A stretch of 64,000 bases of DNA, taken from positions 1 to 64,000 of the forward strand of contig CAJPFJ010000030.1 in NCBI GenBank assembly GCA_905339155.1, read 5' to 3'. This DNA is from Methanosarcinales archaeon (GTDB lineage: Archaea; Halobacteriota; Methanosarcinia; Methanosarcinales; Methanoperedenaceae). The notes below the pieces were generated by a model. That model saw only the letters and a program-made list of their open reading frames with translations, had not been told where the DNA came from and made no database searches. The position numbers and the translations under genes were made by a program. How positions within the stretch are numbered: the stretch's first letter is position 1; every line of letters starts with the position of its first letter. Shown one piece after another: positions 25,661 through 49,583 of the stretch.

Positions 25661-26806
25661 TTATACATTCAAGTCTGCAAGCCTATTTGCTGCCTCTTGC
25701 AATGTATCATCCTTTTTGGAAAAGGTAAAGCGTAGTTTATGTTTTCCTGCTTCGCTCTTGTAGAAACTGCTTCCGGGAACTGCAGCTACACCAATTTCAC
25801 TCACCATGTATTTTGCAAAAGCCATGTCATCCATATTTACACCTTCGGGTATGTCAGCTAATATGTAATATGCACCTTCGGGAATTTTACACTTGAATCC
25901 TGCTTTTATTAAAGCGCTATGGAGGAACTTTCGTTTTCCATCATACATACTTGCAAGTTCTTTATAGTAAGAATCGGGATATCTTAACGCGGTAACGCAT
26001 GCATGCTGGAGCGGTGCAGGCGCGCCGACCGTCAGGAAATCATGAACCTTTCTTATCGCAGATGTCAGGTTCTTTTCCGCGAGGGCATAACCGATACGCC
26101 ATCCTGTGACGCTGTAGGTCTTTGAGAATCCGCTTATTGTTATTGTCCTTTCTTTCATATCGTCAAGGGAAGCTATGCTGATATGCTTTCTATTGTCATA
26201 TAGGATGTATTCATAAATCTCATCGGTAACCGCAATGACATCATTGTCAACACACAGGTCAGCGATCATCTTCAACTCGCCTTTTGTGAAAACCTTTCCG
26301 CAGGGATTGTTAGGTGTATTGAGGATTATGACCCGGGTTTTTCTATTGAATGCGGATTCAAGGGCATCTTCATCGATGCTGTTATCATCATTAAGGGGCA
26401 CAAATCTTGGCACAGCTCCCGAAACAGCGGCATCCGGCCCATAGTTCTCGTAGAATGGCTCAAATATTATAGCTTCATCTCCTTCATTTATCAGGGCAAG
26501 CATGGATGCCATCATCGCTTCGGTCGAGCCGCAAGTCATGGTGATCTCACTTTCAGGATCCGTTTCGATATGATTGTATTCCCTTGCTTTACGTGATATC
26601 TCATCGCGCAGGTCTTTTGCACCCCATGTGATAGAATACTGGTTGTAATCTTCCATGATCGCTTTGGCTGCTGCTTGTTTTAGCGTAAGCGGGGCAGGAA
26701 AGTCAGGAAAACCTTGCGCAAGATTAATTGCATTATGTTTTAATGAAAGGCGTGTCATGTCACGAATGACCGACTCTACAAAATAACCAGTTCTGCGGGC
26801 TAGCAT
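25661..26806 (-). CDS. Class I/II aminotransferase (PLP-dependent)
   Basis: 381 residues. Fold-type I aminotransferase with the N-terminal substrate segment INLAQGFPDFPAP, NTPNNPCGKV (cofactor Asn), TDEIYEYI (Asp/Tyr pair), the PLP Lys in SGFSKTYSVTGWRIGYA and the C-terminal substrate Arg in KLRFTFS. The sequence is closest in style to aspartate / kynurenine-glutamine aminotransferases. Lying next to hisH it might serve histidinol-phosphate or aromatic amino acid transamination, but this is only positional inference. The start at 26806 has no strong ribosome binding site. Confidence 0.9.
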   Translation of the reverse strand: MLARRTGYFVESVIRDMTRLSLKHNAINLAQGFPDFPAPLTLKQAAAKAIMEDYNQYSITWGAKDLRDEISRKAREYNHIETDPESEITMTCGSTEAMMASMLALINEGDEAIIFEPFYENYGPDAAVSGAVPRFVPLNDDNSIDEDALESAFNRKTRVIILNTPNNPCGKVFTKGELKMIADLCVDNDVIAVTDEIYEYILYDNRKHISIASLDDMKERTITISGFSKTYSVTGWRIGYALAEKNLTSAIRKVHDFLTVGAPAPLQHACVTALRYPDSYYKELASMYDGKRKFLHSALIKAGFKCKIPEGAYYILADIPEGVNMDDMAFAKYMVSEIGVAAVPGSSFYKSEAGKHKLRFTFSKKDDTLQEAANRLADLNV

Positions 26807-26951
26807 AGACCTCTTAAAAAGACTTTGGTGTATATTTAACTTTCATTTTGGTTGATATCCGAAAAAAGTCATGAAGTAAAGCATATCAAATTTGAGTTAA
26901 ACCGTTATGTTTATATTTCACGTATTCAATGGTAGGCAAAAGGTGACCTAA

Positions 26952-27125
26952 ATGGCAGCAAAAGTAAACAATGAAGAATGCACCGGTTGTGGAATATGCG
27001 TTGATGAATGCCCTGCAACAGCGATAGAATTGAAAAATGATAAGGCAAAAGTAGACCCGGAAGAGTGTACTGAATGCGGCAGTTGTGTTGATGCCTGCCC
27101 GAATAGTGCTATTTCGATGGAATAA
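26952..27125 (+). CDS. Small 2[4Fe-4S] ferredoxin
   Basis: 57 residues. Two classical cluster motifs [12 protein letters not shown] and [12 protein letters not shown], each CX2CX2CX3CP, in a short clostridial-type fold. An AGGTGACC site lies just upstream of the ATG at 26952. Low-potential electron carrier of the cytoplasm. The stop is one base before the ATG of aspartate-semialdehyde dehydrogenase, so the two are co-transcribed. Confidence 0.92.
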
Positions 27126-27126
27126 T

Positions 27127-28155
27127 ATGCAAAAAATAAAGGCAGGAGTTCTTGGGGCAACAGGTAATGTAGGCCAGCGATTTATAGAGTTGTTGAGCAA
27201 ACATCCATGGTTTGAATTAACATCTCTTGCAGCTTCCGACAAAAGCGCTGGAAAAAAATATAGTCATGCCGCAAGCTGGAGGCTTGAAAGCAAGATCCAC
27301 GAAGACGTCGGTGATATGACGGTTGTGCCTGTTGATCCGAAGCAAGTCGATGCAGACATTGTTTTTTCTGCTCTTCCTACTGACCTTGCCAAAACTGTTG
27401 AACCTGAATTTGCAAAAGCGGGTTTTGTGGTTGCAAGTAATGCAAGCGCTTTACGTATGGTAAAGGATATTCCTCTGGTCATTCCGGAAGTTAATCCCGA
27501 ACATCTTGGCCTGATAGATATTCAGCAGGATAAGCGCAAATGGGACGGATATGTTGTCACAAATCCAAATTGTACGACTATAATGATGGCAGTTACATTG
27601 AAGCCGCTAGTGAAATTCAATATTGAAAAAATATATCTTGCATCCATGCAGGCGATCTCAGGCGCAGGTTATGATGGCGTTCCATCAATGGCAATCCTTG
27701 ATAATGTTATTCCTTATATCGGCCAGGAAGAAGAAAAGGTGGAAAGTGAGACCAGGAAACTCCTGGGGGAATTTAACGGAAGCGAGATACTTGACGCGCC
27801 TTTCAAGGTGAGCGCAAGCTGCAATCGTGTTATGGTTATGGATGGCCATACTGAGGCTGTATGGGCGGAAATGTCAGATGATCCATCACCTGATAAAGTA
27901 AAACAGGCTTTCCTGGATTTTGATCCCGGATTATCCGAATTGCCAACAGAACCCACACCAGTGATCGAAGTAAAGGAAGAAAAAGATAGGCCTCAGCCGC
28001 GTATGGATCGGAACATCGGTGGCGGAATGACTGTTTCGGTAGGACGAATACGCCCCGGTATACGATATATCTGCATGGGACATAATACCATAAGAGGAGC
28101 AGCAGGCGCAAGTGTCCTGAATGCTGAGCTTCTCAGGAAGAAAAGAAAACTTTAG
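27127..28155 (+). CDS. asd: Aspartate-semialdehyde dehydrogenase
   Basis: 342 residues from the ATG at 27127 (an upstream in-frame ATG lies inside the ferredoxin gene). N-terminal Rossmann motif GVLGATGNVGQRF, catalytic Cys149 in TNPNCTT, active-site region SAGYDG-like (AISGAGYDGVPS) and late His in DGHTEAV. Reduces aspartyl phosphate to aspartate semialdehyde with NADPH for lysine, threonine and methionine synthesis. It follows a ferredoxin gene with a single-base gap, an odd partner for an NADPH enzyme. Confidence 0.96.
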   Translation: MQKIKAGVLGATGNVGQRFIELLSKHPWFELTSLAASDKSAGKKYSHAASWRLESKIHEDVGDMTVVPVDPKQVDADIVFSALPTDLAKTVEPEFAKAGFVVASNASALRMVKDIPLVIPEVNPEHLGLIDIQQDKRKWDGYVVTNPNCTTIMMAVTLKPLVKFNIEKIYLASMQAISGAGYDGVPSMAILDNVIPYIGQEEEKVESETRKLLGEFNGSEILDAPFKVSASCNRVMVMDGHTEAVWAEMSDDPSPDKVKQAFLDFDPGLSELPTEPTPVIEVKEEKDRPQPRMDRNIGGGMTVSVGRIRPGIRYICMGHNTIRGAAGASVLNAELLRKKRKL

Positions 28156-28272
28156 AAGCTAAAACCAAAAGATATAAATATCGAAATAACGGGTTAGTTG
28201 AAATTAGAAAAAACGATAGATTTAAAACGATATAAATTAAAAACAGTTGTATAAAACGGAAGGTATGATAAA

Positions 28273-29226
28273 ATGCAAATGGTATTCTTTAATAAAATCT
28301 TAATTGTGTTACTAATTTTAGCAGGAATTTCTATATTTCTTCCTGGAGTATATGCGTCTGAAAATTCATGTATCGATTGTCATAAAACGTTAACTCCTTT
28401 TATCGAAGAGCAGAAGCGGTTCAACCAGATAAGGATCCAGCATCTTGAAAGGAATGCCGCATGTTCCCTTGAATGTCATGAAGACAGGATCAGACAGCTT
28501 GCTACCGCCAATTACCAGCAATGGCAGGAATCGCTTCATGCTATAAAAGGAGTTGCATGTGAAGCATGCCACGGAGGAGATATCAAACAGGCTACGAAAG
28601 AAAAAGCACACACTTTCAAGAACACTACAGATCCGGAAAGCCCTGTTTATTATACCAATGTTCCAAAGACCTGCGGAAACTGCCATCCAAAAGAACTGGA
28701 CAATTTTGAGAACAGTACACATTTCAAGAAGCTGGAATCATTACAACTTGCACCTACATGCACAACATGCCATCATCCACATACTTTCACGGTACTTAAT
28801 CCTGAAGATTTCAGGAATTCCTGTGGGAACTGTCATTCTGTCTATAAGAATGTAGCGCCTTTCGACATACCGCTCAAAGCAGAGGATATGTTAAGAAAAG
28901 TAAATAAGTTAAAATTCAATATAGATAATGCGAGGGAAGATATTTTCTGGGCAAAGAAGAATGGGACTGATGTAGGACAGGCAGAAAAATACACTGAAAA
29001 TGCCCTAAAAACGCTTGGAGATCTTGCGCCAATGTGGCATGAATTCAATCTGACACATTTTGAGGATATAATAGATTCAGCGAATCTGGAAGTGAAAAAG
29101 GCTGAAGATATCGTTAAACCCACACCTTCGCCAACCAGAACTGAACCAGCCAGAGTGCCTGGATTCATAGGTTTGACTGGATTAATTTCGCTAATAGCAG
29201 TGTTCTATATTTTGAGAAAGAAATAA
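28273..29226 (+). CDS. Six-heme cytochrome c with archaeosortase-like C-terminal anchor
   Basis: 317 residues. Sec signal peptide (residues 1-27). Heme motifs: CIDCH, CSLECH (a CX3CH variant), CEACH, CGNCH, CTTCH and CGNCH, all in the first ~200 residues. A helical stretch (~205-280) follows, then a Thr/Pro linker and a C-terminal tail VPGFIGLTGL-helix-RKK, which looks like a PGF-CTERM signal for archaeosortase cleavage and lipid attachment. It would sit outside the membrane and shuttle electrons for the FeS/NrfD genes that follow. Paralogous to the cytochrome at 31953. An AAGGT site precedes the ATG. Confidence 0.93.
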   Translation: MQMVFFNKILIVLLILAGISIFLPGVYASENSCIDCHKTLTPFIEEQKRFNQIRIQHLERNAACSLECHEDRIRQLATANYQQWQESLHAIKGVACEACHGGDIKQATKEKAHTFKNTTDPESPVYYTNVPKTCGNCHPKELDNFENSTHFKKLESLQLAPTCTTCHHPHTFTVLNPEDFRNSCGNCHSVYKNVAPFDIPLKAEDMLRKVNKLKFNIDNAREDIFWAKKNGTDVGQAEKYTENALKTLGDLAPMWHEFNLTHFEDIIDSANLEVKKAEDIVKPTPSPTRTEPARVPGFIGLTGLISLIAVFYILRKK

Positions 29227-29274
29227 GGGCCAACAATGATGAAACAATCTCAAATTATAGAAAGGTGATAAGTG

Positions 29275-29724
29275 ATGCAGCCACATTTAAAAAGAGCTTT
29301 TACATTATTAGCTCTTGTAATAATTGCTTTTATTCTCGTAAGGTCCTTAGTCGTTCCTGAATCATTCGGACAATACGGATGGTACAGGGGAGCTTCTGTA
29401 AATGAACTCAGGGACCTTCCTGTAAATTATGCCGGTTCGACAAGTTGCGGTGAAGAGAATTGTCATCAAATAATTTATTCGGTTTGGGTAAAGGACAGGC
29501 ATAAGACCGTAAACTGTGAAACATGTCATGGCCCGGCGGAAAAACATGTTCTTAATGCAAGAGAAACTTTAACACCTGCTAATGATACTCGAGAATATTG
29601 CGGTAAATGCCACTCCAAGCGAATAGCAAGACCAGAACTGTTCCCGCAGATCGATCCAGAGACACACGGCCAGGATCTAAGATGTGTGTATTGTCATAAT
29701 CCGCATAAGCCGTGGTTTGTATAA
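29275..29724 (+). CDS. Membrane-anchored four-heme cytochrome c
   Basis: 149 residues from the ATG at 29275, with AAAGGTG 7 bases upstream. One N-terminal membrane helix (residues 8-25), then four heme sites: CGEENCH (an unusual CX4CH spacing), CETCH, CGKCH and CVYCH. Extra histidines (DRHKTV, HVLN, THGQ, HKPW) could supply distal ligands. The architecture resembles small tetraheme electron carriers next to NrfC/NrfD-type modules. It probably accepts or donates electrons to the FeS protein encoded 14 bases downstream. Confidence 0.9.
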   Translation: MQPHLKRAFTLLALVIIAFILVRSLVVPESFGQYGWYRGASVNELRDLPVNYAGSTSCGEENCHQIIYSVWVKDRHKTVNCETCHGPAEKHVLNARETLTPANDTREYCGKCHSKRIARPELFPQIDPETHGQDLRCVYCHNPHKPWFV

Positions 29725-29738
29725 AAAGGAGACATAAT

Positions 29739-30530
29739 ATGGATATATCTAGGCGAGAATTTACTAAGATCGGATGCAAAGTTATTATAGGAGCTACTAC
29801 CGGGACTGCAATTGTAGAATCTTTTATTATAAACAGTATCGGGGCTGAAAACTCTAATGCTCAGGGTGGGTATGATTGGGAGAACCACTTCTGGGGTTAT
29901 GTTATTGACACAACCAAATGCATAGGTTGTGGAAGGTGTGCCTATGCATGTAAACTCGAAAACAACGTGCCTTTTGATGAAGAAGTATACAGGACATGGA
30001 TTGAAAGATACAGGGTGAAAAAAACATCATTGGAAACAAGAGAGGAAGAAGTTGTAATAGATTCACCAAACGGTGGAATAGATGAATTCGTGGACGACAT
30101 ACCCGCGGAAGAAATTAATAAAGCATTCTACGTACCAAAAATATGCAATCATTGTGATAATGCCCCATGCGTACAGGTTTGTCCGGTAGGGGCAACGTTT
30201 GAGACAAAAGATGGTGTTGTGCTGGTGGATTATGAATATTGCATAGGTTGTAGATATTGTATTCAGGGTTGCCCTTATGGCGCAAGGTACTTTAATACTG
30301 AGAAGGGGACCGCAGACAAATGCACCTGGTGTTATCACAGGATCACCAAAGGTTTATTACCGGCATGTGTTCAGGCATGTCCTACAGGTGCGCGAAAATT
30401 CGGAGATTTGAAAGATAATAATAGTGAAGTGAAAAAAATAATTGATGAAGAAAGGATCAATCTTCTTAAACCCGATCTTGGTACAAAACCCAAGGTGTTC
30501 TATATCGGTTTAGACCGGGAAGTGAAATAA
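29739..30530 (+). CDS. Tat-exported NrfC-like protein with four [4Fe-4S] cluster motifs
   Basis: 263 residues from the ATG at 29739 (GGAG upstream). The N-terminal SRREFTKIG is a twin-arginine export motif, so the protein folds before export and works outside the membrane. Four cysteine sets follow: CIGCGRCAYAC, CNHCDNAPCVQVC, CIGCRYCIQGC and CTWCYHRITKGLLPACVQAC, the pattern of NrfC/PsrB/DmsB electron-transfer subunits. Its stop overlaps the start of the NrfD-like gene by one base (TAATG). No molybdopterin catalytic subunit is present, so it probably wires quinol oxidation or reduction to the neighbouring cytochromes. Confidence 0.95.
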   Translation: MDISRREFTKIGCKVIIGATTGTAIVESFIINSIGAENSNAQGGYDWENHFWGYVIDTTKCIGCGRCAYACKLENNVPFDEEVYRTWIERYRVKKTSLETREEEVVIDSPNGGIDEFVDDIPAEEINKAFYVPKICNHCDNAPCVQVCPVGATFETKDGVVLVDYEYCIGCRYCIQGCPYGARYFNTEKGTADKCTWCYHRITKGLLPACVQACPTGARKFGDLKDNNSEVKKIIDEERINLLKPDLGTKPKVFYIGLDREVK

Positions 30531-31723
30531 TGTTAGAGAATCTGATATGGGGTTATGTTTATCCCAATGAATCTGAAATACAATGGAGCATATTGATAGT
30601 ATTATATCCTTATATTACGGGTCTTGTAGCAGGCGCTTTTATTGCTTCATCTTTATACCATGTTTTTGGAAAAAAAGAGATAAGACCTGTGGCAAGATTT
30701 GCCCTTCTTACAGCTTTGTCATTCCTGCTTGTCGCAATGTTGCCTTTACTTGTTCATCTTGGACGTCCTGAGCGCGGTATTGAGATCATGTTCACTCCAC
30801 ATCTTACCTCTGCGATGTCAGGATTTGGTTACATATTTTCATTCTACCTGATCATTGTAGTGCTTGAGATATGGCTTTCTTTCAGGGAGGATATTGTTAA
30901 AACGGCTTTAAGTTCACATGGATGGAAAGAATTATTATATTCAAGTCTTGCGTTGTTTTCATTTGATATATCTGAAAAAGCATTGCATGAAGATGAAAAC
31001 TTTGCTAAGAAACTTGCAATAATCGGAATACCATCAGCAGCATTCCTTCATGGGTATGTGGGCTTTATATTTGGTGGTATAAAGGCGAATCCATGGTGGT
31101 CAACCCCACTTATGCCTATTATATTCCTTATGTCAGCTATCGTATCGGGGATAGCGCTGTTGATCTTAATATATATTGTGGCAATGAAGATCAGGAAACA
31201 TGCTATTGACCATAAATGTCTCCAATCACTTGCACATTACCTGTGGATCTTCCTGATACTTGATGTAACATTGGAGTTGCTTGAGATCATTAGCATGAAA
31301 TACGCATCGCGTGAAGATATCGATATTATTAACAGGCTTCTTTCCGATAAAATTGCCTTTACTTTCTGGGGTGTGCAGTTGACACTTGGAATCTTTATAC
31401 CATTTGTTCTTCTGCTCATGGTCAGCTTAATGAAGAAACGAGATACGCTGAAATTGATAATGATTTCTATTTCATCAATTTTTGTCGTAATAGGCGTATT
31501 TGCCATGAGATGGAATGTAGTGATCGGAGGCCAGGAAATATCAAAAAGCTTGGTCGGAACACTTACTTACGTTCCTGTATTCTTTAGCCGGGAAGGAGTT
31601 TTACCCGCAATAATAATATTTATACTTCCATTCATTATCCTGCGGGTCGTAACATCTATCCTGCCTCCATGGAAAGATATGGACGAAGAAGCACCTGAGC
31701 TAACTAAAGTATCAAAAACCTGA
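30530..31723 (+). CDS. NrfD-like quinone-interacting membrane subunit
   Basis: 397 residues with about 9-10 membrane helices; NrfD/PsrC family. The polar segment after helix 2 (LVHLGRPER) is the typical NrfD motif next to the quinone site. These subunits bind menaquinone at the outer membrane face and exchange electrons with the partner FeS protein, encoded immediately upstream with a one-base overlap. It is followed by a hairpin terminator, so the first transcript of the module probably ends here. Confidence 0.93.
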   Translation: MLENLIWGYVYPNESEIQWSILIVLYPYITGLVAGAFIASSLYHVFGKKEIRPVARFALLTALSFLLVAMLPLLVHLGRPERGIEIMFTPHLTSAMSGFGYIFSFYLIIVVLEIWLSFREDIVKTALSSHGWKELLYSSLALFSFDISEKALHEDENFAKKLAIIGIPSAAFLHGYVGFIFGGIKANPWWSTPLMPIIFLMSAIVSGIALLILIYIVAMKIRKHAIDHKCLQSLAHYLWIFLILDVTLELLEIISMKYASREDIDIINRLLSDKIAFTFWGVQLTLGIFIPFVLLLMVSLMKKRDTLKLIMISISSIFVVIGVFAMRWNVVIGGQEISKSLVGTLTYVPVFFSREGVLPAIIIFILPFIILRVVTSILPPWKDMDEEAPELTKVSKT

Positions 31724-31780
31724 GGCATAGACACAGAGATTTAAAAAAAAATAACTCTGTGCCTCCATTATTTTTTTCAT
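31721..31780 (+). terminator. Hairpin terminator after the NrfD gene
   Basis: The sequence GAGGCA...CACAGAG pairs with CTCTGTGCCTC across an A-rich loop, and T-rich sequence (ATTATTTTTTTC) follows. This suits a transcription end before the second cytochrome pair, which has its own leader at about 31780-31950. Confidence 0.5.
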
Positions 31781-31952
31781 AAAATATTGTTAGAAAATCT
31801 ATTTTCTACACAGTTGCATTAGTGAATATTATAGCAAACTTTTTATTGTAAGGAATCATCACATCATCCTAGATAGACAGAATAAAAAACGGATGGATAG
31901 TTCTGGAATTAAAAATACTATAGTGAATCACAAATAACGGTGAAAAGTAAAA

Positions 31953-32948
31953 ATGTCTTCAAAGGATAAAAACCCAAATTCTTACGTGTATAGTTTTAGA
32001 TTTGCTTGTTTAATATTAATCGTCTTCATTTTCTTGATTGCTCCTGCCGGAGCAGCCAATTTAGAAGACTTAAATAATTCGTGTATTAACTGTCATAAAA
32101 GTTTATCACCTTTTACTGATGAGCAAATAAGATTCAATGATATCAGATCTAATCATACTGACAGGAATATATCATGCTCACTTGAATGTCATGAAGACTT
32201 TATAAGGAAAAAGGCTTCTGATAATTTCCAGCAGTGGTCTGATTCAGGCCATTCAAGTTATTTTGTGACCTGTGATGCATGCCATGGAGGCAATCCGGAT
32301 GTAAATACTGAAGCAGGATCTCATTCTCCTATAAAGAATATTACTGATCCGGAAAGTCCGATTTATTATAAGAATATTCCTGAAACATGCGGAAAATGCC
32401 ATTCAACTGAATTGGAGCATTTTAAGAATACTATGCATTATCAGAGATTAAGCGCTGAAAAACGTGCTCCATCATGTGTCAATTGCCATCAACCTCACAG
32501 TTTTAAAGTATTGAAAGCCTCTGAAATTACTCCGCTTTGCAGTGTTTGCCATAATCAAAAAGACCAGGTTTCATCTGCTAATGTTCCCAAGGATGCAAAA
32601 ATTGCGCTTGAAAAAGCGGATGAATTAAAGGAAGAAATCAGGATAGCAAGAAATTCTATCTCAGAAGCAAAGGCAAAAGGAAACAACTCCCACATTTCAC
32701 AGATGGAAATTGCATCAGCTCAAAATGATCTTGATAAAGCAATATCAGTGATGAAGGATGTTCCGTCATTATGGCATAGTTTTGATCTGAAAGATTTCGA
32801 CAGGCAAATTCAAGTCGGGATAGATTCAGCCAAAAATGCGCAAGGTAAAATAAGTGAAGTTGAACAAACCATTCCTCCTGTACCTGGAATAGGAATAGTC
32901 CTGGTAATGGGAATATTCGCAATATTATATCTTATCAGAAAAAAGTGA
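31953..32948 (+). CDS. Second six-heme cytochrome c with archaeosortase-like anchor
   Basis: 331 residues, paralog of the gene at 28273 with the same order of heme sites: CINCH, CSLECH (CX3CH), CDACH, CGKCH, CVNCH, CSVCH. Signal peptide at residues 15-36. A helical segment with AEAKAKGNN-type charged sequence follows, then the tail VPGIGIVLVM-helix-RKK, a variant of the PGF-CTERM signal (PGI instead of PGF). The last base positions overlap the region leading to the 13-heme gene, so the two are co-transcribed. Likely an extracytoplasmic electron carrier. Confidence 0.92.
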   Translation: MSSKDKNPNSYVYSFRFACLILIVFIFLIAPAGAANLEDLNNSCINCHKSLSPFTDEQIRFNDIRSNHTDRNISCSLECHEDFIRKKASDNFQQWSDSGHSSYFVTCDACHGGNPDVNTEAGSHSPIKNITDPESPIYYKNIPETCGKCHSTELEHFKNTMHYQRLSAEKRAPSCVNCHQPHSFKVLKASEITPLCSVCHNQKDQVSSANVPKDAKIALEKADELKEEIRIARNSISEAKAKGNNSHISQMEIASAQNDLDKAISVMKDVPSLWHSFDLKDFDRQIQVGIDSAKNAQGKISEVEQTIPPVPGIGIVLVMGIFAILYLIRKK

Positions 32949-32959
32949 AGGGATCTAAA

Positions 32960-34054
32960 ATGGAAAAAATATCACTTATAGATGTTATCAAGCACAGGAT
33001 TTCAAAATATAAACTTCCTATTATCATCGTATTGATCGTCTTGCTTTCAGTCACATTGGTAATTTCAGCGAAAATGCTGGATATCACTGAAAATCCTGCA
33101 TTTTGTGGTAAGAATTGCCATATAATGAGACCATATTACGATTCATGGAGAACCTCGTCCCACACTACAGTAAAATGTGTGGAATGTCATTATGAACCGG
33201 GTGTAATAGGCCATGTAAAAGGTAAAATAAATGGCCTTATGCAATTCTATAGTTATGAGACCACGGTGGAAGAATACAATGGTAAGTTATATGCTAAAGT
33301 CATGGATAAAAATTGCCTTACATGTCATGAAGATCGTATTTTTTCAACCAATGTTCCATTCACCGGAGTCAACTTCAGTCATAAGAACCATTTGCTAAAA
33401 CCAAACAGAGATATTCAATTAACATGCACAAGCTGCCATTCCATGCTTGTTATCGGAATGAAGGAACATCAATCGGTATCAGATCCATCGTGTGCGCAAT
33501 GTCATCCAAATATGGAACAGAAAGAAAGAGGGCACATAGTGGTAACAACATCTACATGTTTTACCTGCCACTTTAGAGATATCCCTGGCAATAGCTCCAT
33601 ATCTGGTTGTCCCTCATGCCACGGTCCTCCAAAAGAAACTCCCAGGAATTATACGAACTTTGACCACACAAGCCATCTGGCTCGCGGATCTGATTGCCAG
33701 ACATGCCATACAGATATATCAATAGGCGCAAATGATATTGTTCCAAAGGATAAATGTAATTCATGCCATTATAAATCGGAAAGGCTGGAAAAATATGATG
33801 ATTTTAATTTTGTACACAAGAATCATGTGACAAACAATAAGATCGCCTGTTATAACTGTCATTCTGAAGTACAACATGCACCCAGGATAAAAGAAAATCT
33901 ATGTGCCACCTGTCATAAGAGCGAACATCCAGCCGATTGGTTAAATACTCATAAGTCACAGGTATTGATAGGTAAAGTTTGCAGCGATTGTCACCAGCCA
34001 AAATTCTGCTCGGATTGTCATGCTACAGGAAAGGCTATCAAAAAAGCAATATAA
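32960..34054 (+). CDS. 13-heme cytochrome c with NapC/NirT-like membrane anchor
   Basis: 364 residues from the ATG at 32960 (GAAGGG upstream; a GTG 15 bases earlier overlaps the previous stop). One membrane helix at ~20-40, then CGKNCH (CX3CH) in a NapC/NrfH-like context (NPAFCGKNCHIMRPYYDSW), followed by twelve CXXCH sites: CVECH, CLTCH, CTSCH, CAQCH, CFTCH, CPSCH, CQTCH, CNSCH, CYNCH, CATCH and two CSDCH. NapC/NrfH proteins oxidise membrane quinol and pass electrons outward; this one carries a long extra heme wire. It completes the respiratory module. Confidence 0.94.
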   Translation: MEKISLIDVIKHRISKYKLPIIIVLIVLLSVTLVISAKMLDITENPAFCGKNCHIMRPYYDSWRTSSHTTVKCVECHYEPGVIGHVKGKINGLMQFYSYETTVEEYNGKLYAKVMDKNCLTCHEDRIFSTNVPFTGVNFSHKNHLLKPNRDIQLTCTSCHSMLVIGMKEHQSVSDPSCAQCHPNMEQKERGHIVVTTSTCFTCHFRDIPGNSSISGCPSCHGPPKETPRNYTNFDHTSHLARGSDCQTCHTDISIGANDIVPKDKCNSCHYKSERLEKYDDFNFVHKNHVTNNKIACYNCHSEVQHAPRIKENLCATCHKSEHPADWLNTHKSQVLIGKVCSDCHQPKFCSDCHATGKAIKKAI

Positions 34055-34122
34055 TTGTTTAAATGGAAGTCATACCCTCAAAAAAAATAATGTAAGGTGT
34101 GACTTTCTCCCTTTTTTATACT

Positions 34123-34374
34123 ATGAGAAAATCATTCCAATTCAGAATATATCCCACTAAAAAACAAGAAGTAGCGTTGGACAGAACACTTTCCACATGC
34201 AGACATCTCTATAATGATTCTCTTGCAGAACGAAAGCGGCAAGCAGAGCTTAACCGACTGAAACAATCATTCGATGTATTCCCGTGGGGAAAAACTGAAT
34301 GGATAAACCATTATGACCAGGCCAATCAACTCCCATTGTCAAAGACAGCATTCCATCCATTTAGCATGTGGTAA
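34123..34374 (+). pseudogene. Truncated TnpB-like (IS200/IS605 OrfB) N-terminus
   Basis: The start MRKSFQFRIYPTKKQEVALD and the following TCRHLYNDSLAERK match the N-terminal helix-turn-helix part of TnpB proteins. After about 70 residues the frame runs into unrelated DNA and stops. The RuvC-like nuclease part and zinc finger are absent. It is interrupted by, or has interrupted, the minus-strand fragment that begins at 34326. Confidence 0.8.
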
Positions 34375-34784
34375 AGTCCTACAATACATAACAAAAGTTC
34401 AGCCGATTTCAAAAGCTTATTAGCTTCTTGTTTTTCAACTCTGGGGATCCCTCCTTCCACGATTCTTGCTTTTCTCTTTAGATAGTTCGACTTCTCCACA
34501 GTCTGGCTTAAATCATCAATAGGAAGCTCTATCTTCCCAACATTGTGAAGAATAGGATAAGCCATATCCTCTATGAGTTTTCTAACATTCACGCCATTCA
34601 CATATATGTACTTCCTTGATGCTATTACCCGCCCAAGAGTTGGTTCCTCTCTTAGCAATTTTCCAATACGGTTAAGAAGGTTGATGTTTTTTCTAAGTTT
34701 GGCAATCCTTTTCTTCCCAAGTATCTTTGTAGGTTTATGGATAATTCTACCTGCTGCTACCACATCGAAGCTTAAGAAAACCAT
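34326..34784 (-). pseudogene. Fragment of an unidentified helical protein
   Basis: The reading frame is open from about 34800 to 34326. From the first ATG inside it (34784) 152 residues are read: a basic helical part (KKRIAKLRKNINLLNRIGKLL), then a region ending in LLCIVGLYHMLNGWNAV. The family is not recognised. Both ends run into other genes' sequence (DUF4386 gene on one side, TnpB fragment on the other), so it looks like an internal piece brought in by rearrangement. Confidence 0.4.
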
Positions 34785-34792
34785 GCCTGCCG

Positions 34793-35194
34793 CTACTCTG
34801 CTTGTGGTATGACCATTTCTTGCAAGAATATTGGAAGAGCCAATAAGAGCGTCATCCCTGAAGGTTCTTTGCCGAACATAATTAATAAAGCCATTGATAA
34901 CAACAATACAATTCCAATTAAACCCCAACCTGATAGCCATTGAGGAATTAGTTTTGATTGATAAAATATATAGTAATACATCAGAGCGCCCAGGCAAAAA
35001 GCGATTACCCCAAACACAAAGCCCGCCCAATTACGAACTGCTAGCATCAAAGTGCCCAAGGTCTGAAAATAGGAAGCATCCGGAGTTCCTGCTCTTACAT
35101 ATTCCTGACTTAATGTCAATAGTGATAGCAGGCCGAGTGCAGCAACAATATAGAACACTCCCACAATTATTGCGTTCTTTCTGTTCGTATTCAT
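34793..35194 (-). pseudogene. DUF4386-family membrane protein with internal deletion
   Basis: The N-terminus ([18 protein letters not shown]) and the later segments (LLTLSQEYVRAGTPDA, FCLGALMYYYIFYQ, PQWLSGWGLIGI) match the DUF4386 family of small integral membrane proteins. Compared with the paralog at 38067-38714, about 85 residues covering two helices are missing between residues ~20 and 21. Its last residues (QEMVIPQAE) depart from the family where the unrelated fragment begins. It overlaps the MDR gene remnant by 4 bases. Confidence 0.7.
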
Positions 35195-36191
35195 TTCTTT
35201 TCTCCTTTTTTGTTATTATGTCCCATAGTTATTACGACATTTCCCTTTTTGTGTCCTTGTTCAACATACCTGAAAGCCTCGGCAGTCTGTTCTAACGTAT
35301 AGCACCTATCTATAACCGGTTTTATCTTTCCTGCCTCCATAAGCTCTTTTAGAAAAATCAAATTAACCGTGCTTGCGACTGCGTTCCCGCCTTTGACTTT
35401 CTTGCCGCCTATCATTGAAGTCCATAACATTTGAACCAGCTCCGGCAGCTCAATTAAATTCACAAGATAGACTCCTTTTTCTTTAGCAAGCTCTTGCAGA
35501 GTGAAAACGACGTCTTGCCTACCACATCAAAAATAACATCATAAGTTTCACCGTTTTTAGTAAAATCCTCTTTCGTGTAATCAATGACCTTATCAGCTCC
35601 CAGGGATTTCACCATTTCCACGTTCGTGGTACTGCATACTCCGGTAACTTCCGCGCCATAGTATTTGGCAAGCTGTACCGCAAAAGTACCTATACCTCCG
35701 GAGGCGCCATTGATAAGCACTTTTTGTCCGGCCTGGATCTTCCCCAGATCCCTGATGAAATATAATGCAGTATTCCCCGCCAGGGGAACAGAGGCGGCTT
35801 CCTCCCAGGCCGTGTTGGTCGGTTTTATCGTCAGTACTCCGCCTTCGGGTATACATATGTACTCGGCATGGGCGCCAAGAGCGTCGGGTGTCCCAAAAAC
35901 CTGGTCACCTTTTTTAAATCGTTTTACATCTTTGCCTACAGCTTCAATTTCTCCGGCCAGATCAATCCCCAGTATATTTATTTTTGGTTTCTTGAAACCA
36001 AAATACATTCGCGCGAAAAGCAGGAACAATTTAGGCACAAAGGTGAAATTACGAACGTTACAGTCTGAGGTTGTTACTGTTGTAGCATGTATTTTTATCA
36101 GTACTTCATTGTCCTTGGGAACAGGTTTTTCAACCTCTTTAAGCTGAAGTTCATCCGGTGGTCCGTATTTTGTGTGTAATATTGCTTTCAT
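35191..36191 (-). pseudogene. Frameshifted MDR-family zinc-independent oxidoreductase (quinone reductase-like)
   Basis: Two frames together give a complete medium-chain dehydrogenase/reductase like the intact copy at 37103. The first runs [17 protein letters not shown] through the NADPH loop ([20 protein letters not shown]) to [16 protein letters not shown]; the second resumes in frame with [13 protein letters not shown] and ends [20 protein letters not shown]. One base is missing in the A-rich run near 35485-35495 (AAAGAAAAAGG on the sense strand). This could be a real pseudogene or a homopolymer sequencing error. The product would reduce quinones or enones with NADPH. Confidence 0.8.
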
Positions 36192-39339: not shown

Positions 39340-40275
39340 TTACTTGAAGATAGTATCCACAAGTCGGCGGCGGGCGAGTTCGGCGGCGTAGCGGCGCCCG
39401 AGCTGATCGCCGTGGCTTGCGAGCCAGATGCGCACGCTCTCGGTGCCGCGCGGTGGTTCGTGCGAGACAAGAAGCTCCTCCATCAGGCCCGCGAGCTCCT
39501 CGCGCGACAGGATCACCTCGCGCAAAATCCAGCCCACCGCACGGATCAGCCCAAGTGCGAACCAGGGCGGGACATGGAGAATGCGCGCCTGCTGCCCAGT
39601 CGCGGCCGCAATCGCACGCACCAGTTCCTCGAAGGTCATCACCTCGGGCCCCGCCGCGTCGAGCGTCACGCTCTCATCAAGCAGCGCCGCATCGGCGACA
39701 ATCCGTCCCACATCGTCGAGCGTGATTGGCTGGAGCCTATAGTGTCCCGACCCGGGCATCGCGAAAATCGGGAAGCTGCGCAGAAACCAAGCGATATTGT
39801 TGACGAGGATGTCGTGCTCTCCAACAATCAGCGTTGGGCGGACTATGGCGAAGGGCAAACCGCAGGCATGGACCCTCTCCTCGACGATTGCCTTGCCGCG
39901 GTAATAGCCGAGCTTTGATCTTAACGATGGATTGCTAACGCTAATATGGACGACCCGCGTCACGCCCGCACGCCGCGCCGCCTGTAGAAGGACCTCGGTG
40001 TTCTCCACGGCGCGCTCGATGCTGACGCCAACGAACGGGTAGCGCACCCAGTAGGTATTCACAAGCAGCCGCGCGCCACGCAGTGCATCCTCGAGCGCTG
40101 ACGGATCCTCGAACTGGAGAGGGCGAGCCTCGATCCGCGGGGTGCCGTCGAGGGGCGCGAGCGGGACACGTCGGTTAGTGAGAGTGCGCAGGGCGAGCCC
40201 GCGCGCCCGAAGCTCTCTAGCCACCGCTCTTCCGGTGTAGCTGAGCGCCCCAGTGACTACGGCGAGGTCGGGCAC
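39340..40275 (-). CDS. NAD(P)-binding epimerase/NmrA-like protein, GC-rich and probably acquired
   Basis: 311 residues from a GTG at 40275 (GGAGG upstream). Atypical SDR: N-terminal cofactor loop TGALSYTG, then LLVNTYWVRYP and a later YYRGKAIVEE, the YxxxK pair. C-terminal part similar to NAD-dependent epimerase / NADH dehydrogenase subunit-like (NDUFA9 type) proteins. Codons are almost all G/C-ending and Arg, Ala and Leu dominate, whereas every neighbour is AT-rich. This strongly suggests recent horizontal transfer, probably from a high-GC bacterium; assembly contamination is a second possibility. The edges of the GC-rich stretch are near 39350 and 40370. Confidence 0.88.
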   Translation of the reverse strand: MPDLAVVTGALSYTGRAVARELRARGLALRTLTNRRVPLAPLDGTPRIEARPLQFEDPSALEDALRGARLLVNTYWVRYPFVGVSIERAVENTEVLLQAARRAGVTRVVHISVSNPSLRSKLGYYRGKAIVEERVHACGLPFAIVRPTLIVGEHDILVNNIAWFLRSFPIFAMPGSGHYRLQPITLDDVGRIVADAALLDESVTLDAAGPEVMTFEELVRAIAAATGQQARILHVPPWFALGLIRAVGWILREVILSREELAGLMEELLVSHEPPRGTESVRIWLASHGDQLGRRYAAELARRRLVDTIFK

Positions 40276-40404
40276 CTATTCCTCCACGCGCGCCGCAATC
40301 ACGGCGCAAAGCAGCCGGCTGAGATAGCTTCGCAGCTCACAGACGGGCACTTGCCCGACAGGCACGATAATCCTTTTCTGCAATTCTGATGCTTCATTTG
40401 ACAT
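40276..40404 (-). CDS. Possible chimeric small protein at the edge of the GC-rich insert
   Basis: A 42-codon frame starts at the ATG at 40404 in AT-rich DNA, crosses into GC-rich DNA around 40370 and ends TAG directly before the epimerase GTG. Its C-terminal part (CELRSYLSRLLCAVIAARVEE) may be the tail of the gene that originally preceded the epimerase in the donor. It has no good ribosome binding site. Function unknown. Confidence 0.25.
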   Translation of the reverse strand: MSNEASELQKRIIVPVGQVPVCELRSYLSRLLCAVIAARVEE

Positions 40405-40456
40405 TTGTAGTCTGACAATTAATAATTATTGACAGGAGACAAAAACATATGGGAGG

Positions 40457-40687
40457 TTAGTGATGAATGAGCGGATTATGATATGAAGTGCTGTCTGGTG
40501 ACAGCAACATTGTAACTGGGCAATATATACATTTATCATTTGTCACAAGAATCGTATTTGGTGTAAATAATGATCCGCCAGGCAAAGTTCTCGATTGTTC
40601 AGCAATTATCAGGATTTTTTCTCCTTCTGCTAGCATTGATTTCATTTCTTCATCTATTTCTGTCTCTGTCATTTTTGTTTTCCTCAT
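40457..40687 (-). pseudogene. Fragment resembling a short PH-domain protein
   Basis: 76 codons: an acidic helix (EIDEEMKSMLAEGEKILII) then a beta-rich run ending LVTNDKCIY, as in small bacterial/archaeal PH-domain proteins where an 'LTNKRIIF'-like strand is followed by more strands. Here the frame leaves the family at about residue 55. The match is by pattern only; it could be a real short protein. Confidence 0.35.
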
Positions 40688-47261: not shown

Positions 47262-49520
47262 ATGTTGGATAGGTTTATATGCAAATGTTCGTTCACGATG
47301 AAAAAATCATTTCTGTTAAAATTTTTTTATATATCGATGTTATTTTTAATGATGATCGGACCATCAATTGCAGAAACATTCGATGATATCCATAAGGATC
47401 TGGATGAAAACATGGGCGACTCCGGATGCCTGAAATGTCATTCTTCACATCAGGGGACTATATTGGAAGTTCCACAGAAAAGCAGTATCAATGTTGGATC
47501 CCCGGAACTGCAAAATATCCGGTTAATGACAGACTCTGAAGTTACTGGAAATATTACAATCGTTACAAGTGTTGGACAAAATTGGCTCCAGCAAGGAATC
47601 TTTGGACCTAACCAATCAGATGTGACAACAGACAAAAGCTGGGGCTGGACATTTTTTGATGAAATATATATATCGATTCCCAATGGAACATCAAGCGGTT
47701 ATATGAGTCCACCTGAGAGAACAACCCAGAGGAACAGCATCTACGCTCTCTTACTTGATAGCGGAAATAATAGCAATCCAATAAAAAATGCACAGGTCAC
47801 AGCAGATGTGACCTACTGGATATATGATGGTGTGAATTATACAAATCAAAACAGTCAGATCCAGCTCACAGAAGACTCGAATCACAGTGGATTGTATAGT
47901 GGAATCTTTTATTTCTATGGTGGCCAGCCAGAGGGCGGATATTGCGGAGGATGCCATCCGATCCATGGGGCGGATACAAATGCAGGTTACTTTCCTGGAA
48001 ACTATACTGCCAATATTACAGCGCAGGCAGATAATAAAATTGCAACGTCCCAGGTAAGCTTTGAAGTAACTGCGTGGGGTTGTGAAGACTGCCATGGCAG
48101 CGGTAATCCACATCAGACTAAAGTACTGGGCATAGACTCATATTGTTACCTCTGCCATGGTGTTAACGAGCTTTTACACCGCCAGGATGATGCTGGAAAT
48201 CCACACCAGAATACAGCCCATAGAACTATCCAATGCACAGATTGCCATACTGGTAAAGCTGTGAATTCGCATACTTTCAATGGTGTCACCTTTGCAAAAG
48301 GTGGCATTGACAATAACAGATCTCTTCCGCAATACAATTATGTGGCAACAGAGTTGAATACCGGGACCCACATAAACCTGAGCTGCGTATATTGTCATGA
48401 CGATCTGGCATTACCTGGCCCTTCCGGAGGATACAGGGCTGACAACTACACCATAAAGAGCACAGTCAATAACTACACTCCGAGCTTTGCAAGCATACAG
48501 CAATTCCAGGATTACTATGTCATCAATGTAGCCAGGGAAGGACCACTTAATGTGACACTTGACTGGGAAGGAACTTCAAATATTGGTTTTTATCTTTATC
48601 CGCCTGACTTCAACCCGGGAAACAGAACAACGCCTTTCAATCCAGATGAAGGCGATTACCCATACTATAATGGTTCAACCATGACTAAAAAACCAGAAGA
48701 TTATACAAATAATACACCCATGTCAGGTAAATGGATACTGGCAGTATATGGTTATGATTTCTACAGTGGAGGATTAAGATATGGACAGCTGCAATCAGCA
48801 TTAAAATACACAATTAACACCACCTACCCTATTCAAAGAAAAGATCTTCCGACTATTCCGGAATGCAACAGCTGTCATAACTCAGACGGAACTGGAAGAG
48901 CTTTAACAACCGACAACATCCCTGACTGGAATCCGGGCTTTGCTCATGTTGATACAAATAACGATGGAACTCTGGATGTTCAATGCAGGATGTGCCACGA
49001 TTCAATGCATGAAATAACAGTCAAAGACTGCCGCACCTGCCACACTACAGCCCCGGTAAATCATCCCATCAAAGAGCCTGAATTTGCACAAAGAACCATC
49101 AGCCAGTGCCTTGAATGTCATGGTGATCCGCACCAGGTAACATCAGCAGGAGGCACGGATTGTATCGCATGTCATTCTCCAAAGGATGTCAATATCTCGA
49201 AATTTGCCCGCCATGCAGATATCAACACAGGCGATGGAGGAGGGAATGCAACGAATTTTGATTGCTGGACATGTCACTATCAGAAGGATATGAACAAAAA
49301 CAATGTATACCTGTGCGGGGACTGCCATTCAAATACCAGCGGCATAGTAAATATTTCAAACACTTCGCTTATTATGAGTGATTTCATGCACGGGTCGATG
49401 ACCACATGCAGGGCATGCCATGCACCAACCGGTGGTTCTCATCCCGGTTATCACCAAAATGGAACTGTGGGGCCGCTGGGACTTGTAGAAAATATATTAA
49501 GAAAGAATCATGCACCCTGA
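47262..49520 (+). CDS. Large secreted 14-heme cytochrome c
   Basis: 752 residues; start at 47262 with GGAG upstream (a second ATG at 47298 would shorten the signal peptide's N-region). After a signal peptide come 14 CXXCH motifs in two groups: six in residues ~55-380 and eight in ~525-735. A beta-rich region between them (~395-520) resembles a PPC-like beta-sandwich. The C-terminal heme cluster (from ECNSCHNSDGT to TCRACHAPTGG) is shared almost word for word with the next gene. No C-terminal anchor is seen, so it may be free or bound to the cell surface. Expected role: conducting electrons across the S-layer to an outside acceptor. Confidence 0.93.
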   Translation: MLDRFICKCSFTMKKSFLLKFFYISMLFLMMIGPSIAETFDDIHKDLDENMGDSGCLKCHSSHQGTILEVPQKSSINVGSPELQNIRLMTDSEVTGNITIVTSVGQNWLQQGIFGPNQSDVTTDKSWGWTFFDEIYISIPNGTSSGYMSPPERTTQRNSIYALLLDSGNNSNPIKNAQVTADVTYWIYDGVNYTNQNSQIQLTEDSNHSGLYSGIFYFYGGQPEGGYCGGCHPIHGADTNAGYFPGNYTANITAQADNKIATSQVSFEVTAWGCEDCHGSGNPHQTKVLGIDSYCYLCHGVNELLHRQDDAGNPHQNTAHRTIQCTDCHTGKAVNSHTFNGVTFAKGGIDNNRSLPQYNYVATELNTGTHINLSCVYCHDDLALPGPSGGYRADNYTIKSTVNNYTPSFASIQQFQDYYVINVAREGPLNVTLDWEGTSNIGFYLYPPDFNPGNRTTPFNPDEGDYPYYNGSTMTKKPEDYTNNTPMSGKWILAVYGYDFYSGGLRYGQLQSALKYTINTTYPIQRKDLPTIPECNSCHNSDGTGRALTTDNIPDWNPGFAHVDTNNDGTLDVQCRMCHDSMHEITVKDCRTCHTTAPVNHPIKEPEFAQRTISQCLECHGDPHQVTSAGGTDCIACHSPKDVNISKFARHADINTGDGGGNATNFDCWTCHYQKDMNKNNVYLCGDCHSNTSGIVNISNTSLIMSDFMHGSMTTCRACHAPTGGSHPGYHQNGTVGPLGLVENILRKNHAP

Positions 49521-49583
49521 AATAATGCCAAATTATATATGGGATCAATGCATATTTTCATTCGGATAAGGATAGGAGAAGTT

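Follow-up and report, generated by a model that had tools for sequence, protein, structure and literature searches.

Introduction

Modules that combine a c-type cytochrome, an iron–sulfur (FeS) protein and an NrfD-type membrane protein without a catalytic subunit are known from CbcSTU (Cbc4) and from systems of the SirCD/NrfCD type, and CbcSTU of Geobacter sulfurreducens is a proposed menaquinol:cytochrome c oxidoreductase (PMC11434368; here and below, our statements on cited papers refer to parts of their text). For the Methanoperedenaceae, five menaquinone:cytochrome c oxidoreductase clusters have been described, two of which are composed of NrfD, a 4Fe-4S protein and multiheme cytochromes (Leu et al., 2020, mBio, PMC7327174); that paper numbers these NrfD groups inconsistently, as 4 and 5 and later as 1 and 2, and the usage of Zhang et al. 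(2023, PMC10542353) fits the latter. A highly expressed operon of M. manganicus encodes NrfD, an FeS protein and 3- and 6-heme cytochromes (Leu et al., 2020, ISME J, PMC7082337). Here we examine a six-gene cluster of this kind (positions 28,273 to 34,054) from a Methanosarcinales archaeon of the Methanoperedenaceae. It lies in the first 64,000 nucleotides of contig CAJPFJ010000030.1 (assembly GCA_905339155.1), the whole of which we call the window. We designate the genes, in order, A (hexaheme cytochrome), B (tetraheme cytochrome), C (exported FeS protein), D (NrfD), E (second hexaheme cytochrome) and F (13-heme cytochrome).

An initial annotation had put the cluster forward as a candidate for an undescribed respiratory system, possibly a dedicated menaquinol-to-extracellular-heme complex or two linked ones in opposite directions. 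The cluster is in fact already known, and the evidence supports its division into two separable modules, A–D and E–F. We propose, with a probability of roughly 0.6, that these are two neighboring menaquinol:cytochrome c oxidoreductases that feed extracellular electron transfer and each have an anchored hexaheme cytochrome of their own.

Gene Content and Published Counterparts

Open reading frames (ORFs), motif counts and a PF03916 match to D confirm six plus-strand genes in the order first annotated, together with 29 heme sites, four cluster motifs in C and two possible quinone-reactive parts, NrfD and the NapC/NrfH-like F. Of the heme sites in A, B, E and F, 25 are canonical CxxCH motifs and four are wider: A and E each have five CxxCH and one CSLECH, B has three and one CGEENCH, and F has twelve and one CGKNCH. 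Residue shuffles of the four proteins gave means of 0.02–0.12 CxxCH and a maximum of two. The counts are also conserved. All 25 relatives of A keep its sites, the wider one included, and 28 of 30 relatives of E do so, the exceptions being one short ORF and one cut by a contig end. Among 39 F-type proteins (a fortieth, L087, is omitted because of an internal stop), 35 have 13 sites and the remaining four are short paralogs with seven; the wider site is present in all 39. The wider site of B is CX4CH in 25 of 27 orthologs and has the longer CX6CH spacing in two.

NrfD, a 4Fe-4S protein and adjoining multiheme cytochromes, the hallmarks of Group 1, are all found here; the same gene order is present in M. 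nitroreducens, and the function proposed for the Group 1 complex of the Methanoperedenaceae is the same. In Ca. M. nitroreducens ANME2D, A–F are contiguous (G014:C1, 545760–551401). Judging by motif counts and order, A, B, E and F are very probably ANME2D_00599, 00600, 00603 and 00604, which are listed among the highly expressed cytochromes and whose MPEBLZ orthologs reached 1073, 767, 993 and 907 reads per kilobase per million mapped reads (Arshad et al., 2015, Table 2, PMC4683180). Zhang et al. (2023) give Methanoperedens_02260, 02261, 02264 and 02265 as the four Group 1 cytochromes, with highest expression on soluble iron. The gap between 02261 and 02264 leaves room for exactly two genes, and the tag spacing agrees with the order A, B, (C, D), E, F. 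By our own arithmetic, the eight multiheme cytochromes in four groups of that paper would fit four (A, B, E and F), two (the Rieske-associated hexahemes described below), one and one.

The same order in M. nitroreducens and the matching tag pattern of Group 1 mean that the system cannot be called undescribed (PMC7327174, PMC10542353, PMC4683180), and the menaquinol-to-extracellular-heme role first suggested for it is likely and in line with the published proposals. The M. manganicus operon corresponds to A–D only. In the parts of the Group 1 accounts cited here, E–F is not set apart as a NapC-like module and the hexahemes are not tied to a Rieske complex; a search of the literature on NrfD, NapC and hexahemes in Methanoperedens and ANME-2d, with supplements and most subscription papers outside its reach, found neither the two-module split nor a common hexaheme family. 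One contig of the present genome (L185) also carries a second NrfD/FeS/7-heme set, with a b-type cytochrome and a 7-heme protein close by, that is much like the electrode-induced cluster of Ouboter et al. (2024, PMC10874420).

A–D and E–F as Separable Modules

The closest named relatives of the locus are Candidatus Methanoperedens assemblies. D has orthologs of 77–94% identity in 29 of 33 other genomes of the same genus or family, and F has matches of at least 69% in 30 of these 33; across 26 genomes from the order's other families, F has no match and D has remote matches in a single genome. The initial annotation had suggested looking for the same gene order in ANME-2d genomes, and among the 30 genomes that carry D, E–F lies directly 3′ of it in 21, among them the two genomes (G031 and G033) that represent a second genus. 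In the other nine, one of which is the MnB_21 genome (G007), E–F is on another contig, and the 1.4 to 9.6 kb that could be read 3′ of D contain no E. At every one of these loci E adjoins F, although one E is shortened by a contig end. On the tree of D, parsimony needs six switches between the linked and the unlinked state, and counting by well-supported branches gives at least four.

Five 13-heme paralogs of F (L068 and L079–L082) lie in stretches of 10–16 kb without a match to D or E, and in the three with genes listed (L068, L080 and L081) another multiheme cytochrome, of 5–16 sites, is found near the paralog. In L080 and L081 a short gene, universal stress protein-like by eye, adjoins the F paralog. 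Leader alignments show conserved promoter-like sequences 5′ of both A and E, and an element in the E leader is kept at contiguous and separated loci alike. The separation of E–F from D in nine of 30 genomes, the leaders of its own and the D-free relatives of F favor E–F as a unit workable without D, which lends support to the earlier suggestion of two linked complexes, though not to their running in opposite directions.

F, a NapC/NrfH-Like 13-Heme Protein

F may be a quinol-reactive subunit. It has one N-terminal helix, a CHxM first heme and then a conserved W/SxH/CxxCH stretch, the pattern of NapC/NirT proteins and of NrfH; this pattern is invariant in 13 compared proteins, and the solved NrfH chain 2j7a_C matches F at E 1e-4. 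The comparison was made with the sequence of NrfH, and with CymA and ImcH by description. Whereas NrfH and CymA have four hemes, F has 13. ImcH has seven. F is nevertheless distinct from NrfH: it scores 66.1 bits against TIGR03153, whose cut-off is 134.2, while the genome's own NrfH, encoded beside NrfA, scores 147.9. It is plausible that F alone acts as a quinol dehydrogenase. Lysine 94 of F is invariant in 21 proteins of the Methanoperedens family and may correspond to one of the residues of the NrfH quinol site, Lys82 and Asp89 (numbering taken as that of 2j7a; Arshad et al., 2015, PMC4683180).

Wider Relatives and the Case for a Single Complex

B, C and D form a widespread trio. Named genomes gave at least 538 relatives of D, of which the 80 top-ranking loci were retained. 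Outside Methanoperedens there are 59 such loci, and by tblastn 58 of them have stretches resembling B and C 5′ of D on the same strand; in the sole exception the sequence opens 13 bases before D. (ORF calling, by comparison, missed D in 11 of the 59, including five of six Anaeromyxobacter loci.) The hosts include Thermincola, Anaeromyxobacter, Melioribacter, Dehalococcoidia and Acidobacteria. Judged from the B-, C- and D-like stretches alone, these loci have the architecture of CbcSTU, and the combination of c-type cytochrome, FeS protein and NrfD-type protein without a catalytic subunit that marks CbcSTU and the SirCD/NrfCD-type modules is also present in our locus. Likened by description rather than sequence, our locus differs from CbcSTU in its additional anchored hexaheme A and its E–F module.

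In two archaeal families, probably Archaeoglobi, the trio is accompanied by an F-type protein, so that the tetraheme protein, FeS protein, NrfD and NapC-type multiheme protein stand together as they do here. This F-type protein has 10–11 hemes and a Cys-rich N-terminus ahead of its helix, unlike F. By inference, these cassettes are GACE_0102 and GACE_1341, each with its cluster, as well as GAH_01253–01256, of probable iron reducers (table of Arshad et al., 2015, PMC4683180; gene list of Geoglobus ahangari, PMC4600277). Weaker matches to the F profile exist in further genomes of the phylum besides the nine Archaeoglobi-like ones, and hexahemes of the A/E family occur in two of the nine Archaeoglobi-like genomes tested. 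In L193 and L192, both Archaeoglobi-like, hexahemes, small heme proteins and B–C–D trios lie close together, and L193 additionally has Rieske/cytochrome b-like genes, judged by eye.

Several observations weigh against two oxidoreductases. The first is the Archaeoglobi-like arrangement itself: the F-type protein adjoins B–C–D in all seven loci read, and its ORF overlaps D by 4–23 bases in six of them. This speaks for one joint machine and is the best argument that the two parts share a pathway. Second, the genomes in which E–F is separated are draft assemblies. Third, a terminator between D and E, claimed in the initial annotation, holds for this genome, where a hairpin of 10 pairs followed by seven T (−13.8 kcal/mol, z −3.45) stands 3′ of D, and fails as a general feature: the region downstream of D has z below −2 in just nine of 30 genomes, the present one counted, so a strong terminator is not general to the cluster and is ruled out as a general module border. 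Fourth, PF03264 (NapC/NirT) does not match F at 0.01, K94 faces Lys82 of NrfH solely via a gapless extension of the alignment, and Asp89 is unmatched; among nine archaeal homologs of F none has a lysine at K94 and one has it at K92, where four have arginine. Fifth, AlphaFold models are poor, with a mean predicted local distance difference test score of 42.5 for F and 58.7 for A, a fold search with A gave no significant match, and in the parts of the literature covered we found no biochemical data on the cluster.

A rival reading is a single supercomplex, with NrfD as the sole quinol site, F and both hexahemes as successive wires leading from C and B, and the helix of F as a mere anchor. Such a complex would agree with the Archaeoglobi-like arrangement, with the position of E–F 3′ of D in most genomes, those of the second genus included, and with all four Group 1 cytochromes responding jointly to soluble iron (PMC10542353). 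It is harder to reconcile with the repeated splitting of E–F from D, with the paralogs of F that have no NrfD nearby and with the conserved leader that E has for itself, and we consider it unlikely, if deserving of serious attention.

C, D and the Direction of Electron Flow

Of 28 orthologs of C, 27 keep its Tat-type RR motif and the other is cut by a contig end. C matches Pfam Fer4_11 with 102 bits, and its best solved chain is 2vpw_B, labelled NRFC PROTEIN (E 7e-49). D has about 9–10 hydrophobic segments (10 computed windows, two of them overlapping), and its profile has no match at 0.01 among solved structures. Genome-wide there are five matches to the molybdopterin domain PF00384 and none is on this contig, which likewise carries no NrfA over the Pfam cut-off, in agreement with the initial annotation's statement that molybdopterin and nitrite reductase subunits are missing from the cluster.

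Cytochrome-containing NrfD/FeS modules of such build, as in Qrc, can reduce quinone, and the A–D module might accordingly run in reverse, passing electrons from outer cytochromes to menaquinone. Weak matches of C to QrcC and of D to QrcD would be in keeping with this; they reach 129 bits against a cut-off of 400 and 21.9 against 570, and the contig encodes no molybdopterin-like subunit. Published models and expression data place the cluster in menaquinol oxidation (PMC7082337, PMC10542353), and we hold the reversed direction to be very unlikely.

Still less probable is that the cluster is the half that donates electrons to an Nrf nitrite reductase, or to some other periplasmic reductase with genes elsewhere. 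C and D do resemble NrfC and NrfD (165.1 and 71.5 bits) and NrfA is present in the genome, but both scores are far under the curated cut-offs (377.6 and 347.6), NrfA on its other contig is adjoined by a genuine NrfH of its own (over the TIGR03153 cut-off), and the Group 1 cytochromes of M. nitroreducens peak on soluble iron, not on nitrate (PMC10542353). In the comparison with Dsr, C exceeds the NCBIfam cut-off for DsrO (204.7 against 200 bits). D reaches 52.9 bits against DsrP (cut-off 350), and DsrM, DsrK and DsrJ are unmatched by all six proteins among the hits listed (in the case of C, the top 25 of 68). With no Dsr complex seen here, the DsrO score is a likely source of misnaming.

A Family of Four Hexahemes

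A profile of A and E detects two further strong members in the genome, R1 and R2, side by side on contig C26, where Pfam identifies their neighbors as Rieske and the N- and C-terminal parts of cytochrome b. The four proteins share 37–42% identity over nearly their full length (A and E 39%). Exactly four matches, fragments counted, are found in 26 of 34 family genomes, and none in the order's 26 other genomes at E 1e-20. In a midpoint-rooted tree, 52 family members taken from 13 genomes form four groups, each cut off by a branch of support 100, with E separate; the order between groups is unsettled and carries a long-branch warning for E and R1. Four clean groups indicate that the duplications are older than the two genera sampled. 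The 7-heme proteins beside this genome's b-type cytochromes show remote similarity to the hexahemes. A resemblance of A to hydroxylamine oxidoreductase or MccA was dismissed and not used, all E values being above 1.

Proposed Electron Path

On our preferred reading of two adjoining oxidoreductases, menaquinol from Fpo/Hdr during methane oxidation would be oxidized at NrfD (D), from where electrons would pass through the four clusters of C, which with its Tat-type signal should face outward, to the anchored tetraheme B and on to hexaheme A. In the second module F, anchored by one helix, may oxidize menaquinol itself, or may collect electrons, and would hand them to hexaheme E. R1 and R2 probably do the same job beside Rieske/cytochrome b. 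From the hexahemes we infer onward transfer through extracellular cytochromes to metal, electrode or nitrate-linked sinks. Because A, E, R1 and R2 are paralogs placed by different oxidases, one docking family would be the exit port of several unrelated quinol oxidases. A broader proposal, which we make tentatively and at somewhat less than even odds, is that E–F is a distinct, unnamed NapC-type oxidoreductase beside the five published groups and that one ancient four-member hexaheme family serves as the common exit port of three unrelated quinol oxidases (NrfD/FeS, NapC-like and Rieske/cytochrome b).

Features and Transcription Signals of the Locus

The features of the cluster are collected in Table 1. 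A CCAAAAG block and a TATA-like stretch 5′ of A are kept, by eye, in most of 26 aligned leaders. The element of the E–F leader (31870–31917) has the core AAAAAACGG with an imperfect inverted repeat on either side (CAGAA-AAAAAACGG-TTCTG) and could be a regulator site. As a regulon mark the motif was rejected, being no commoner than its reversed control across five genomes. An RNA hairpin in this leader was not supported either: 76.1% of cells were paired in register against at most 48.4% in slid controls, yet 118 of 500 shuffles did equally well. RNAalifold predicts zero pairs in the E leader, and an Rfam search of 26500–35500 gave no match. An open frame of 732 codons in two entries might imply a fusion of E and F, which is ruled out by a stop a few codons 5′ of F.

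Table 1. Genes and candidate signals of the A–F cluster, in window positions.
Feature	Positions	Strand	Basis or remark
Probable archaeal promoter of A–D, BRE/TATA-like ACCAAAAGATATAAATAT	28164..28181	+	Leader alignment, by eye
A: hexaheme c-type cytochrome, 317 aa	28273..29226	+	ORF and motif counts
A: signal/N-terminal helix and C-terminal membrane anchor			Hydrophobic stretches 9–27 and 295–313
B: tetraheme cytochrome, N-anchored, 150 aa	29272..29724	+	Three CxxCH and one CxxxxCH
C: Tat-exported FeS protein, four [4Fe-4S] motifs	29739..30530	+	SRREF motif, cluster motifs; ATG at 29739 more likely start, full ORF opens at 29712
D: NrfD, integral membrane quinone-reactive subunit	30530..31723	+	PF03916, 167 bits
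Terminator-like hairpin and T-run 3′ of D	31722..31777	+	
E–F: probable own promoter GCAAACTTTTTATTG and conserved leader element	31834..31917	+	Promoter by eye
E: second hexaheme cytochrome, 331 aa, paralogous to A, hydrophobic segments at both termini	31953..32948	+	
F: 13-heme cytochrome, 369 aa, single N-terminal membrane helix	32945..34054	+	NapC/NrfH-like first domain; alternative ATG at 32960 possible

Elsewhere in the window, two further large multiheme cytochromes are encoded at 47262–52292; the first has 14 sites, and the second has 13 and includes an InhA-like MAM domain. A gene at 39340–40275 that resembles, by eye, a bacterial NAD-binding protein lies in a G+C island (59–62% at 39500–40499 against 31–47% in adjoining windows) and may reflect a recent transfer or an assembly chimera.

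Implications

For annotation, the scores above mean that pipelines could misname F-type proteins as NrfH and C as DsrO. If Group 1 is two modules, A–D and E–F need not respond together where they are unlinked, which would change how transcript data are read. A common hexaheme family would represent a single docking partner for several quinol oxidases. The range of acceptors open to Methanoperedens depends on the route that methane-derived electrons take out of the menaquinone pool.

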